Source: an uncultured Erysipelotrichaceae bacterium (GTDB lineage: Bacteria; Bacillota_I; Bacilli_A; RF39; UBA660). Taken from it: 37,916 nucleotides of DNA. A model generated the notes under the pieces. It did not search any database and was not told the DNA's origin. It saw nothing but the letters and a program-made list of their open reading frames with translations. Below are positions 1-17,384 of the stretch, in pieces; the first letter of the stretch is position 1, and the number at the start of each line of letters is the position of its first letter. Position numbers and translations under genes: made by a program. The stretch spans positions 1 through 37,916 of the forward strand of contig CACYFN010000009.1 of NCBI GenBank assembly GCA_902773675.1, read 5' to 3'.

Positions 1-1047
1 AGTAATGGAGTAACAACTACAACATGTAACTCAAGTGGCGATGATTATGACAATGCTACTTACACATTAACACTTACTATTGAGACTGTTCAATATAATA
101 AATATGCAAGTGCTTGGAATACAGGTAATACAGTAAATATACTAGAAGAAAGACCAAGACCAGTACCAGCAAGTCAGTATTTAGCTACAAATGCAACAAA
201 TCCAGCAAACTCTGAATATAATGCAACAACAAAAGGAAATATGTTTGTATTTACTCATGGAGAAGCACCAAATCAAGTAACAGAAACAAGATATATAGGA
301 GATGCTCCAAAGAACTATGTAAAATTCAATTGTGATAATGATGGAACAAATTGTGATGTAGATGATGGTACTGGTAACGTAGAACAAAGAATGAAATTAG
401 TAAGAGGTAGTGATTTTGCAACTAATATGGTATTCAATTCAAGTTATAACAATGACTGGACAGTATCTCCACTAAATACATTCTTAAATGGAGATTATTA
501 TAATCGTACAGGAGATGCAGCAACATATGGATTAAAAGCATCTGCTAAAAGTATGATAGGTGATGCAGTATATTATTTAGGAGCAGTATCATATAACTCA
601 GGATTTGGTACAACTGAAAAAATTTATGTAGAAGAAAGAGGAACTACAGTATGTGGAGCATGTAACTCAGATACAACTAAGTTAACATGGACAGGAAAAG
701 TAGGATTAATGTATCCAAGTGATGAATATATGGTATATGGAAATGGAGTAAATGCTACATGTTATGATAATCCAAATGGATGTAGTGGAACTAATGCTCA
801 AACAGGATGGGTATATAAAAGTAATGTTTTAGAAGGACAATCTAGCCTATCTTATACATGGTTGTTGTCTTCCTATGCTGGTCGCTCGTATAATGTGCTT
901 CGCGCGCATAGCGACGGCTTCTTGGGCAGCAGCGACTCGATTCTCAGCAGTGGGGTTCGCCCCGTCGTATATCTAAAATCTAATATCAAAATCGCTGACG
1001 GAACTGGAGAGGTAGGAAGCCCATACACGCTAGAAGAAATCCAGTAA
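1..1047 (+). CDS. Surface protein with C-type-lectin-like (DUF6273-like) C-terminus, putative DGR target; 5' truncated
   Basis: The gene is open from the first base in frame 1 and ends at TAA 1045-1047, giving 348 visible residues with no start in the window. The first 40 residues resemble the end of a TasA/SipW-type bead domain (a YTLTLTIETVQYNKYASAW-like stretch). A linker rich in Pro, Asn and Thr follows, then a domain with landmarks seen in DUF6273-type proteins: NYVKF, DDGTGN..E.RMKLVR, FLNGDYYN, SMIGDAVYYLG, LMYPSDEY, YTWLLSS and GVRPVVYLKSN. Six or more cysteines suggest disulfides outside the cell. From about residue 290 the DNA turns GC-rich and adenine-poor, as in variable regions of diversity-generating retroelements. 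That fold supports ligand-binding diversity in known DGR targets. The ligand is unknown. The family call rests on recalled motif order, not on a search. Confidence 0.8.
   Translation, partial: SNGVTTTTCNSSGDDYDNATYTLTLTIETVQYNKYASAWNTGNTVNILEERPRPVPASQYLATNATNPANSEYNATTKGNMFVFTHGEAPNQVTETRYIGDAPKNYVKFNCDNDGTNCDVDDGTGNVEQRMKLVRGSDFATNMVFNSSYNNDWTVSPLNTFLNGDYYNRTGDAATYGLKASAKSMIGDAVYYLGAVSYNSGFGTTEKIYVEERGTTVCGACNSDTTKLTWTGKVGLMYPSDEYMVYGNGVNATCYDNPNGCSGTNAQTGWVYKSNVLEGQSSLSYTWLLSSYAGRSYNVLRAHSDGFLGSSDSILSSGVRPVVYLKSNIKIADGTGEVGSPYTLEEIQ
862..990 (+). other. Putative DGR variable region (VR) in the 3' end of the surface-protein gene
   Basis: Bases 901-960 contain 39 G+C of 60 and only 9 A, in a gene and genome that are otherwise strongly AT-rich. 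Many codons here read as if AAC or AAT had been mutated at the first two positions with the third base kept: TAT, GCT, GGT, CGC (874-885) and TTC, GGC, AGC, AGC, GAC (919-936). They sit between invariant-looking anchors: TGG at 859, AGC-GAC-GGC at 910-918 and the GVRPVVYLKS codons from 952. This is the expected footprint of adenine-directed mutagenic retrohoming. The boundaries are approximate because no template repeat is present in the window to align with. Confidence 0.75.
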
Positions 1048-1060
1048 CACAGGCGAAGCC

Positions 1061-1091
1061 GTCGTGTGCAGGTAATGGTATCTGCCACGAC
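1061..1091 (+). promoter_or_regulatory. GC-rich hairpin 1 just downstream of the VR
   Basis: GTCGTG (1061-1066) and GCAG (1068-1071) pair exactly with CTGC (1082-1085) and CACGAC (1086-1091), with one bulged T at 1067 and a 10-nt loop. It starts 14 bp after the stop codon. DGR targets often carry an inverted repeat just 3' of the VR that helps target recognition during retrohoming. There is no T-run, so it does not look like an intrinsic terminator. Confidence 0.7.
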
Positions 1092-1101
1092 ACGCAAAGA
1101 A

Positions 1102-1130
1102 GTTGCTTGGAGGCTGTGTCTCCGAGCAAC
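1102..1130 (+). promoter_or_regulatory. GC-rich hairpin 2 downstream of the VR
   Basis: GTTGCTTGGAG (1102-1112) pairs with CTCCGAGCAAC (1120-1130) over 11 positions with a single T-G wobble and a 7-nt loop. The GC-rich tract ends right after it, where AT-rich DNA resumes at about 1132. No T-run follows. It may be part of the same retrohoming signal as hairpin 1, or an mRNA-stabilising 3' structure. Confidence 0.65.
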
Positions 1131-1194
1131 CAGAATTTCATGTATTTATACAAGTTTAATTATTTGAATAAGGTTTTAAATTAATTAATTATAG

Positions 1195-12508: not shown

Positions 12509-13369
12509 ATGAATGGAATAATACTCATAAACAAGCCTGAAGGTATAACCAGTAGAGATGTAGTAAACACAGCTATAAAAAAATTAAGTACCAAAAAAAT
12601 AGGCCATACCGGTACCCTCGACCCTATAGCTACTGGAGTAATGACTATCTGTATTGGTAAAGCTACTAAGCTAGTTAATTTATTAACTAGTGAGAATAAA
12701 GAATATATTGCTGAAGTGACTTTAGGAATAAAAACAGATACACTAGATATAACAGGTAATATCTTAGAAAAAAAAGAAACTAATATAGAAAAAGAAAAAC
12801 TAGAAAAAGTAATTAATTCTTTTAAAGGAAAATATAATCAAGAAGTTCCAATCTATTCAGCAGTTAAAATAAAAGGTAAAAAATTATATGAGTATGCCAG
12901 AAATAATGAAGAAGTAATTCTTCCTAAAAGAGAAGTAGAAATATTTAGTATAGAACTACTAAATTATAAAGATAATAAATTTACTTTCAAATGTACAGTT
13001 AGCAAAGGAACATATATAAGAAGCTTAATAAAAGATATATGTACTAAATTAGAAACAATTGGAACTATGTCTAAATTAACAAGAATAAAACAAGGTAAAT
13101 TTAAATTAGAAGATTGTATAGAAATAGAAGAAATATCTAAAGATAAAATAATAGATATAAAAAGTATACTAGATATTAAGCAAATACAATTAGATGATAC
13201 TTTAAAATTTAAAATATTAAATGGTCAAATCATTGAAAACATTTATAATGAAGATAAAGTACTATTTAAAGATAAAAATAATGAAGTATTAGCTATCTAT
13301 CAAAAATATGAAAAAGATAAAACAAAGATAAAACCATATATAATTCTATATGAAAAGAAGGAGAGATAA
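12509..13369 (+). CDS. truB: tRNA pseudouridine(55) synthase
   Basis: This 286-residue enzyme makes pseudouridine at position 55 in the T-loop of tRNAs. The catalytic motif GHTGTLDPIATGV carries the nucleophile D38. The KGTYIRSLI motif is also present, and length is normal. GGAGGA immediately before ATG 12509 fixes the start. The stop is 4 bp before the next start. Unlike many bacteria it is not next to rbfA, infB or ribF. Confidence 0.96.
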   Translation: MNGIILINKPEGITSRDVVNTAIKKLSTKKIGHTGTLDPIATGVMTICIGKATKLVNLLTSENKEYIAEVTLGIKTDTLDITGNILEKKETNIEKEKLEKVINSFKGKYNQEVPIYSAVKIKGKKLYEYARNNEEVILPKREVEIFSIELLNYKDNKFTFKCTVSKGTYIRSLIKDICTKLETIGTMSKLTRIKQGKFKLEDCIEIEEISKDKIIDIKSILDIKQIQLDDTLKFKILNGQIIENIYNEDKVLFKDKNNEVLAIYQKYEKDKTKIKPYIILYEKKER

Positions 13370-13373
13370 AATT

Positions 13374-14258
13374 ATGACATTATTAATAATGGCTGCCGGA
13401 ATGGGTAGCAGATTCGGAGGATTAAAACAAATAGAACCAGTAGGACCAAATGGAGAATTTATAATAGATTATTCTATTTATGATGCAATTAAAGCAGGAT
13501 TTACAAAAGTAGTATTTATAATTAAAGAAGAAAATTATAATGATTTCGTAGAAACAATAGGAAAACGTATTGAAGGTAAAATAGAAGTAGAATACGTATT
13601 TCAAAAAATGGAAGATGTACCAAATGGTGTTGAAATACCAAAAGACAGAATTAAACCTTGGGGAACAGCACAAGCATTATATGCTGCTAAAAATGTAATA
13701 GATGGACCATTTGCTGTAATATCTGCTGATGACTTTTATGGAAGAGAACCATATACACTATTAATAGATTCATTAAATAAAGGAGAGTTTAGTGCTATTG
13801 GATATAAAATAGGAAATACCTTAACAAATGTTGGATCAGTAAAAAGAGGAGTATGCTTCAGCAAAGATGATTACCTAACTAATATTATTGAAAGTAAAGT
13901 TAAATTTGAAAATGGTAAAATAATAGGTGAACCATTAAGTGGTGGAGAACTATATGAAATGGATAGTAGTCAAAGCGTATCAATGCTAATGTTTGGGCTT
14001 CAACCATCATTATTTGAATATATCAAAGAAGATATGCCTAAATACTTTGAAAAACATGCAGATAATTTAACTACATGTGAATATTTACTTCCAGAAGTTC
14101 TAGGAGATATGTTAAGCAAAAATTTAATTAAAATTAAGCTAATTCCTACTCATGCAGTATGGAAAGGTGTAACATATAGAGAAGACTTAGAAGAATTAAA
14201 AAAATATATCAATGAAGAAATAGAAAATGGAGTATATCCAGAAAAATTATATAGTTAG
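13374..14258 (+). CDS. Sugar-phosphate nucleotidyltransferase-like protein, copy 1
   Basis: This 294-residue protein has the NTP_transferase fold, which joins a sugar-1-phosphate to an NTP. The nucleotide-binding start is AAGMGSRFGGLKQ (residues 7-19), a base-recognition loop reads KPWGTAQAL (94-102), and VISADDFYG holds a metal-binding Asp pair. AAGGAG at 13358-13363 favours ATG 13374 over the ATG at 13350, which lies inside truB. It is followed after 9 bp by a paralogue. UTP-glucose-1-phosphate-type activity is possible, but neither sugar nor nucleotide can be assigned. Confidence 0.88.
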   Translation: MTLLIMAAGMGSRFGGLKQIEPVGPNGEFIIDYSIYDAIKAGFTKVVFIIKEENYNDFVETIGKRIEGKIEVEYVFQKMEDVPNGVEIPKDRIKPWGTAQALYAAKNVIDGPFAVISADDFYGREPYTLLIDSLNKGEFSAIGYKIGNTLTNVGSVKRGVCFSKDDYLTNIIESKVKFENGKIIGEPLSGGELYEMDSSQSVSMLMFGLQPSLFEYIKEDMPKYFEKHADNLTTCEYLLPEVLGDMLSKNLIKIKLIPTHAVWKGVTYREDLEELKKYINEEIENGVYPEKLYS

Positions 14259-14267
14259 GAGAATATT

Positions 14268-15149
14268 ATGACATTAGCAATCATGGCTGCCGGAATGGGT
14301 AGCAGATTCGGGGGATTAAAACAAATAGAACCAGTAGGTCCAAATGGAGAATTTATAATAGATTATTCCATTTACGATGCTATTAAAGCTGGATTTAACA
14401 AAGTTGTTTTCATAATAAAAGAAGAAAATTATAACGACTTTGTTGAAACAATAGGAAAACGTATAGAAGGTAAAATAGAAGTAGAATATGTATTCCAAAA
14501 AATGGAAGATGTACCAGAAGAAATTGAAATACCAAAGGATAGAGTTAAGCCTTTAGGAACTGGTCATGTATTATATACTTTAAGAAATACTATTAAAGAA
14601 CCATTTGCTGTAATATCAGCAGATGATTTCTATGGTAGAGAACCATTTAAGTTACTAGTAGATTCACTTAATAAAGGTGAATATAGTACTATTGGATATA
14701 AAATAGGTAATACTCTTACTAATGTAGGTTCAGTAAAAAGAGGTGTATTCTTTTCAAAAAATGGATATGTTACGCATATTGTTGAAAGTAAAGTAGAAAA
14801 ACTAAATAATAAAATAGTTTGTACACCATTAAATGGTGGTGATGACTATATTATCAATGATGATCAAACAGTATCAATGTTAATGTTTGGACTTCAACCA
14901 TCTATATTTAAGTTTATTGATAAAGATATATTAAATTATTTTAATTCTCATAAAGATAAATTAGATACTTGTGAATACTTCCTACCAGATATATTAACTA
15001 ATATGATAAAAGAAAACTATGCCCAAATAAAACTAATTCCTACTCATGCAGTATGGAAAGGTGTAACATATAGAGAAGACTTAGAAGATTTAAAAAATTA
15101 TATCAATGAAGAGATAAAAAATGGAGTATATCCAGAAAAACTATATTAA
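14268..15149 (+). CDS. Sugar-phosphate nucleotidyltransferase-like protein, copy 2
   Basis: This 293-residue tandem paralogue of the preceding gene has the same fold and nucleotide-binding start. Residues 1-83 differ from copy 1 at only two positions (L4A, T44N), although many codons differ silently. The base-recognition loop has changed from KPWGTAQAL to KPLGTGHVL at residues 94-102, and residues 165-255 diverge widely. The last 30 residues are again nearly identical. This points to a duplication followed by change of substrate pocket. GGAG upstream of ATG 14268 is the ribosome site. Both genes share the terminator at 15150-15178. Confidence 0.87.
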   Translation: MTLAIMAAGMGSRFGGLKQIEPVGPNGEFIIDYSIYDAIKAGFNKVVFIIKEENYNDFVETIGKRIEGKIEVEYVFQKMEDVPEEIEIPKDRVKPLGTGHVLYTLRNTIKEPFAVISADDFYGREPFKLLVDSLNKGEYSTIGYKIGNTLTNVGSVKRGVFFSKNGYVTHIVESKVEKLNNKIVCTPLNGGDDYIINDDQTVSMLMFGLQPSIFKFIDKDILNYFNSHKDKLDTCEYFLPDILTNMIKENYAQIKLIPTHAVWKGVTYREDLEDLKNYINEEIKNGVYPEKLY

Positions 15150-17212: not shown

Positions 17213-17297
17213 TGGTGCGAGTGAAGGGACTTGAACCCCCATACCGTTAAGTGCTAGATCCTAAGTCTAGTGCGTCTGCCAATTTCGCCACACTCGC
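17213..17297 (-). tRNA. tRNA-Leu (anticodon TAG)
   Basis: The 85-nt minus-strand gene includes an encoded CCA. The acceptor GCGAGTG pairs with CACTCGC, the anticodon stem CTAGA/TCTAG carries the loop CTTAGGA (anticodon TAG), and there is a long variable arm as in class II tRNA-Leu. It reads CTA and other CTN codons. It is 10 bp downstream of the next tRNA, so both are likely cut from one transcript. Confidence 0.93.
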
Positions 17298-17307
17298 TAA
17301 TTTAAAA

Positions 17308-17384
17308 TGGTGGATCTTATAGGACTCGAACCTATGACCGCCCGGTTATGAGCCGGATGCTCTAACCAACTGAGCTAAAGATCC
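17308..17384 (-). tRNA. tRNA with anticodon CAT, probably tRNA-Ile2 (lysidine-modified)
   Basis: The 77-nt minus-strand gene has an encoded CCA. The acceptor is GGATCTT/AAGATCC, the anticodon loop CTCATAA is on a CCGG/CCGG stem, and the T-arm GTTCGAGTC is standard. The acceptor and anticodon arm resemble Firmicutes tRNA-Ile(CAT), in which TilS converts C34 to lysidine to read ATA. Elongator tRNA-Met cannot be excluded. It lacks the CCC/GGG anticodon stem of the initiator. Confidence 0.88.

Follow-up and report, generated by a model that had tools for sequence, protein, structure and literature searches.

A probable remote target of a chromosomal diversity-generating retroelement in a putative BsaA/SipW-type matrix protein gene of an uncultured Bacilli bacterium

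The window analysed here, a stretch of 37,916 nucleotides, is contig C9 of the 1.46-Mb, 94-contig draft genome (92% complete) of an uncultured Bacilli bacterium. Its G+C content is 24.3% overall, and it opens within a gene whose features are collected in Table 1. Towards the 3' end of this gene lies a GC-rich patch, 901-960, with 39 G+C and 9 A in 60 bases; our recount agrees with that of an earlier note on this DNA, and away from this patch the 60-mers of the window have at most 32 G+C. The codons on which that note built its argument, TAT (874), CGC (883), TTC (919), GGC (925), AGC (928), AGC (931) and GAC (934), are present, as are its two anchors, TGG at 859 and the reading GVRPVVYLKS from 952, but the run it quoted at 919-936 is interrupted by an unchanged TTG (922) between TTC and GGC. 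The neighbours of the gene on the contig are ordinary chromosomal genes (VanY-like, AA_kinase-family, RelA/SpoT and LepA), and no reverse transcriptase (RT) was found anywhere on its 37.9 kb. Elsewhere the window carries a tmRNA gene (RF00023, 26943-27324), two tRNAs on the minus strand (17216-17384) and a pair of 300-nt direct copies, 88% identical, at the starts of adjoining genes of ~300 aa (13365-13664 and 14259-14558).

Table 1. Features of the target gene and its 3' flank (window positions)
Feature	Position	Strand	Evidence or remark
DGR target gene	1..1047	+	ORF open at the 5' contig edge, N-terminus cut off
DUF6273-like C-terminal domain with the VR, after the end of the BsaA/SipW-type matrix domain	within 1..1047	+	PF19789, 22.0 bits (cut-off 23.5)
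In-frame loss of EVWRILGVF in the window paralogue	352..363	+	Alignment: segment conserved in nearly all paralogues
VR, copy of TR-A	860..962	+	19/32 template adenines changed, 2/71 other bases
3' end of the TR/VR match: window GGGGTTCGCCC, template GGTGTCCGCCC	952..962	+	Likely priming (IMH) side; role inferred from BPP-1
Constant C-terminal tail VVYLKSNIKIADGTGEVGSPYTLEEIQ	963..1047	+	Alignment: nothing equivalent behind the template
GC-rich inverted repeat just past the stop codon, candidate target hairpin/cruciform	1061..1091	+	-11.6 kcal/mol as DNA, z -2.5
Second hairpin, 12-bp stem, 5-nt loop	1102..1130	+	-10.1 kcal/mol, z -4.6

The earlier note had taken the patch for part of the variable repeat (VR) of a diversity-generating retroelement (DGR) and had named a whole-genome search for the template repeat (TR) beforehand as the test. 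Searching the genome with window 841-1140 as the query gave matches on contigs C31, C21, C10, C65 and C5. C10 yielded an additional, shorter match that lies in no target gene; this is the template TR-A (C10:26961-27063, minus strand; GGTTATTGTCTTCCAATGCTGGTAACTCGAATAATGTGCTTAACGCGAATAGCGACGGCAACTTGAACAACAACAACTCGAATAACAGCAATGGTGTCCGCCC). The window itself contains no TR. A plain blastn search for the TR gave no match, and the repeats were compared by an adenine-tolerant alignment, in which the mismatches fall almost exclusively at template adenines. The bias in the window VR (Fisher p 2.2e-10) is repeated in the VRs of C31 (21 of 32 adenines and 0 of 71 other bases differ), C21 (17 of 32 and 0 of 71) and C10 (18 of 32 and 1 of 71), with p from 3e-14 to 2e-10 over the four. 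All three kinds of replacement base occur at template adenines, and each of the seven quoted codons is, as the earlier note had read them, a template AAT or AAC altered at the first and/or second base with the third kept. The variable region is thus real, although not over the whole of 862-1047 as first drawn: it ends 85 bases before the ORF does, placing the VR at the 3' end of a coding target gene, and what follows is a constant tail.

At least four genes, each on a contig of its own, carry a VR of TR-A. Adenine changes cannot turn any codon of this template into a stop, and the 18 codons open to change, of which 14 are AAY (15 amino acids each) and four less variable, allow ~4e18 protein variants. 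The C31 and C21 genes differ at 7 of 95 bases upstream of the VR and at 0 of 71 non-adenine positions within it, as expected if VRs are recopied after gene duplication. A second template, TR-B (C65:1291-1393), has VRs on C65 and C5 that fit less cleanly, with insertions relative to it. The GC-rich ends of genes on C63 and C62 were also tried as copies of TR-A or TR-B; with 10-17 non-adenine mismatches, neither template fits. These VR-like ends have no downstream hairpin and look like targets that left the DGR system.

The genome contains two cassettes, on C10 and C65, each in the order VR gene, TR, spacer (about 190-240 nt), MSL, Avd, RT and a 93-aa ORF. The MutS-like protein MSL matches MutS_I (PF01624, 23.6 bits, cut-off 20.6), and the RT matches RVT_1 (55.3 bits, cut-off 29.6). 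Avd matches bAvd (PF22296, 46.5 bits, cut-off 40), its score against the NCBIfam Avd equivalog being 50.9 bits, below the cut-off of 80. A DGR RT and an Avd gene, for which the earlier note had proposed a genome search, were thereby both found, and beside the templates, in accord with its designation of the gene as a DGR target. The C65 enzyme, RT-B, is intact and carries IGNMTSQ and YMDD, corresponding to the DGR RT signature (I/V/L)GxxxSQ and YxDD (PMC3521204). In RT-A, the C10 enzyme beside TR-A, a small deletion exactly at the SQ motif shifts the frame, and the sequence there reads IGNMTRE. MSL and Avd are intact in both cassettes. The two RTs are 83-85% identical in the two parts, and their dN/dS of 0.24 before the lesion and 0.29 after it indicates that both were under selection until recently; the loss of RT-A would accordingly seem recent, or else a fault of assembly. 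By its MutS domain I, MSL may bind mismatched TR/VR duplexes. The 93-aa ORF (L025 3430-3711), of no known family, adjoins DGR genes in many relatives and is a possible extra accessory gene. Three other candidates were rejected: the RT of contig C56, group II intron-like by its sequence; a third cassette at the start of C1, where RT and TR are both absent; and the RT of contig C59 (G000; L030, L101), which is retron-like (St85 model, 103 bits, below cut-off) and has a small ORF upstream.

Both non-adenine differences of the window VR fall in 952-962, where it reads GGG GTT CGC against GGT GTC CGC in the template; the C31, C21 and C10 VRs are identical to the template across this segment. Information transfer that begins 5' of these two bases would leave them as they were, in agreement with what the window VR shows at its 3' end. 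The TR/VR match terminates in a GC-rich CGCCC, and an inverted repeat with the loop ATGG begins ~98 bp past the VR. The same inverted repeat stands behind the C31 and C10 VRs, and behind that of C65 it differs by one loop base. Published phage target hairpins lie 4-34 bp from the VR and have the loop GRNA (PMC3240598); the repeat at 1061-1091 is a candidate for a target hairpin of the BPP-1 type, though farther off and with another loop. In the second hairpin, the stem sequence varies behind other VR genes with pairing largely kept. The spacer between TR and MSL contains, at 8 of 18 loci, a further hairpin capped by A-TACG-T, with stems unrelated in sequence; shuffling predicts 0.2, and the excess suggests that an RNA structure is conserved there. 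This TACG-loop hairpin, with its covarying stem, lies at ~1564-1575 of L025 and in the same place in L026, and is found also in L108, L111, L112, L115, L116 and L118. An Rfam scan of the genome's own DGR loci gave no match to a DGR RNA, nor any for the copies of the TACG hairpin.

Without its N-terminus, the window copy reaches 19.9 bits against TIGR04090 (cut-off 60). Its paralogue on C31, full length and 85% identical to it, has a SipW-type signal and matches TIGR04090 (BsaA, SipW-dependent biofilm matrix) with 105 bits; seven paralogues, full-length or 3'-cut (C31 and six more), reach 105-125 bits. A SipW-type peptidase (TIGR02228, 104 bits, C51:9216-9632) is encoded directly upstream of the BsaA paralogue on C51. 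The C-terminal half of the targets resembles DUF6273, short of its cut-off, and the AT-rich paralogues C51, C2, C10b, C10c and C27 end in a comparable C-terminal part that has no GC-rich segment. Such genes are cut by the ends of contigs C5, C9, C10, C21, C31, C34 and C65, a pattern to be expected where sequence is repeated and variable. The targets thus appear, from the family membership of the paralogues, to be secreted, SipW-dependent, TasA/BsaA-like matrix proteins with a varying C-terminal tip. TasA was listed weakly for the N-terminal structure model (5of1, E 0.03). The variable-domain model (pLDDT 57, best PDB match E 0.7) was too poor to sustain the C-type-lectin-like C-terminus proposed earlier, and the description of the host as a spore-former was not established either: Spo0A was found with a frame that looks broken, and SpoIIE was not found in the 92%-complete assembly.

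Related genomes carry similar systems. At E <= 1e-10, 88 of 193 family genomes have a match to the RT, weaker matches possibly including other kinds of RT, and those matches that carry a name come from uncultured Bacilli and Candidatus Ventrenecus. Clean TR/VR pairs (8-28 adenine and 0-3 other differences) occur at about 20 loci of related Bacilli genomes; MSL is present in about three quarters of 45 loci inspected, and the order MSL-Avd-RT is retained in most. The VRs of relatives sit on varied N-termini, among them BsaA in G008 (L162, 104 bits), type IV prepilins (L149, L104) and others without a named family. A viral origin was considered and rejected: IMG/VR held no relative, and phage RTs were at most 35% identical among the matches listed.

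We hold with high confidence, every feature open to a decisive test agreeing, that a DGR on the chromosome has its VR at window 860-962. On the BPP-1 model, a complex of RT and Avd, perhaps with MSL, would reverse-transcribe the TR transcript with errors at adenines, and the resulting cDNA would replace the VR, from its 3' end, in any gene with a matching 3' end and perhaps also a hairpin such as 1061-1091. With no RT on its contig, the window gene would be a remote target, probably served in trans; with RT-A frameshifted and RT-B intact, its rewriting would now probably depend on the C65 enzyme. The likely effect would be a change in the binding specificity of surface or matrix fibres. Our tentative reading of the whole is that one live RT serves the templates of both cassettes in trans and keeps varying the tips of TasA/BsaA-like matrix fibres whose genes form a dispersed family in a Gram-positive gut lineage, comparable tips on SipW/BsaA or prepilin scaffolds in related genera forming a changing adhesive coat.

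Alternatively, the VR was written by a DGR whose diversification from TR-A has since ended, its own RT being dead and the C65 RT not serving TR-A. The frameshift at the SQ motif, the in-frame loss in the window gene and the truncation of the C10 VR gene shortly past its VR all fit such a relic, and the VR-like ends on C63 and C62, matching no template found and without a downstream hairpin, suggest that targets are indeed retired. Against it, two of the four TR-A VRs have no difference at the 71 non-adenine positions, RT-B is intact and closely similar to RT-A, and Avd and MSL are undamaged in both cassettes; we consider this course of events unlikely, if well worth keeping in view. The window copy itself may be defective, given the lost segment, and with RT-A broken may no longer be diversifying or functional; the deletion could also be a fault of the draft assembly. 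A further alternative accepts the DGR and takes the targets for antiphage or recognition proteins that bind phage particles instead of adhesive matrix fibres. A part in immunity has been suggested for DGR systems (PMC10053308), and a variable tip on a surface protein suits either role, but the scaffold belongs to a biofilm-matrix family, related genomes carry comparable VRs on type IV prepilins, and the scanned targets showed no defence or signalling domain; we consider an antiphage role rather improbable. That no DGR is involved, the patch being a foreign GC-rich segment or the product of diversifying selection together with ordinary gene conversion between paralogues, would suit the large paralogous family and the abrupt change in GC content but is refuted by the template match, the differences being restricted to the adenines of a template outside any target gene that RT, Avd and MSL adjoin, and we give it virtually no weight.

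The system preferred here, a DGR acting on dispersed matrix proteins, shares with that of Bordetella phage BPP-1 (mtd/avd/TR/brt) the adenine-only TR/VR change, Avd, an RT with the SQ motif, the VR at the C-terminal end of the target and an inverted repeat downstream of it. It differs in being chromosomal rather than phage-borne, in its additional MutS-like gene, in its remote targets and in having the TR upstream of the accessory genes. MSL is a known DGR accessory (PMC10053308; MSL DGRs attributed to Wu et al. 2018). With those DGRs, as they are described there, the present cassettes share a PF01624-type MSL, which here stands together with Avd and RT. Bacteroides DGRs, according to the citation of Macadangdang et al. 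2024 in PMC12632263, vary the tip pilins of type V pili. Common to that case, as so cited, and ours are a gut bacterium and a surface-fibre protein varied by a DGR; ours concerns Gram-positive Bacilli and a SipW/BsaA scaffold, with prepilins in some relatives. As in TasA/BsaA matrix proteins, the N-terminal half of the full-length paralogues exceeds the TIGR04090 cut-off and a SipW-type peptidase is present in the genome; a C-terminal variable domain rewritten by a DGR is added here. The kind of DGR is already known, and the interest lies in the target class and the remote layout. A large metagenome survey states that DGR targets remote from the RT were beyond its reach (PMC8144416); the present genome offers a clear case of several, found starting from the VR side. 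Among the open-access papers searched, none combined a DGR with BsaA/SipW matrix proteins, and within that set both this target class and the worked example of remote targets seem new. In uncultured gut Bacilli, the system links targeted hypermutation with fibres of the biofilm-matrix type and suggests a way for such bacteria to vary what they stick to.

Two further observations concern the repeats around these loci. In L104 (7091-9090) and L110 (2256-4088), several template-like copies stand in a row behind the RT, without long reading frames, and some relatives may hold template arrays. In the genome studied here, a 126-nt element with long inverted repeats occurs in five copies, only behind VR genes and RT cassettes (L025, on C65, 1035-1160 and 3702-3824; C31:1984-2105; C21:43073-43194; C10:24561-24680). 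On C65, two direct copies flank the TR-MSL-Avd-RT cassette, and the element could be a trace of the route by which cassettes and targets are copied or relocated.
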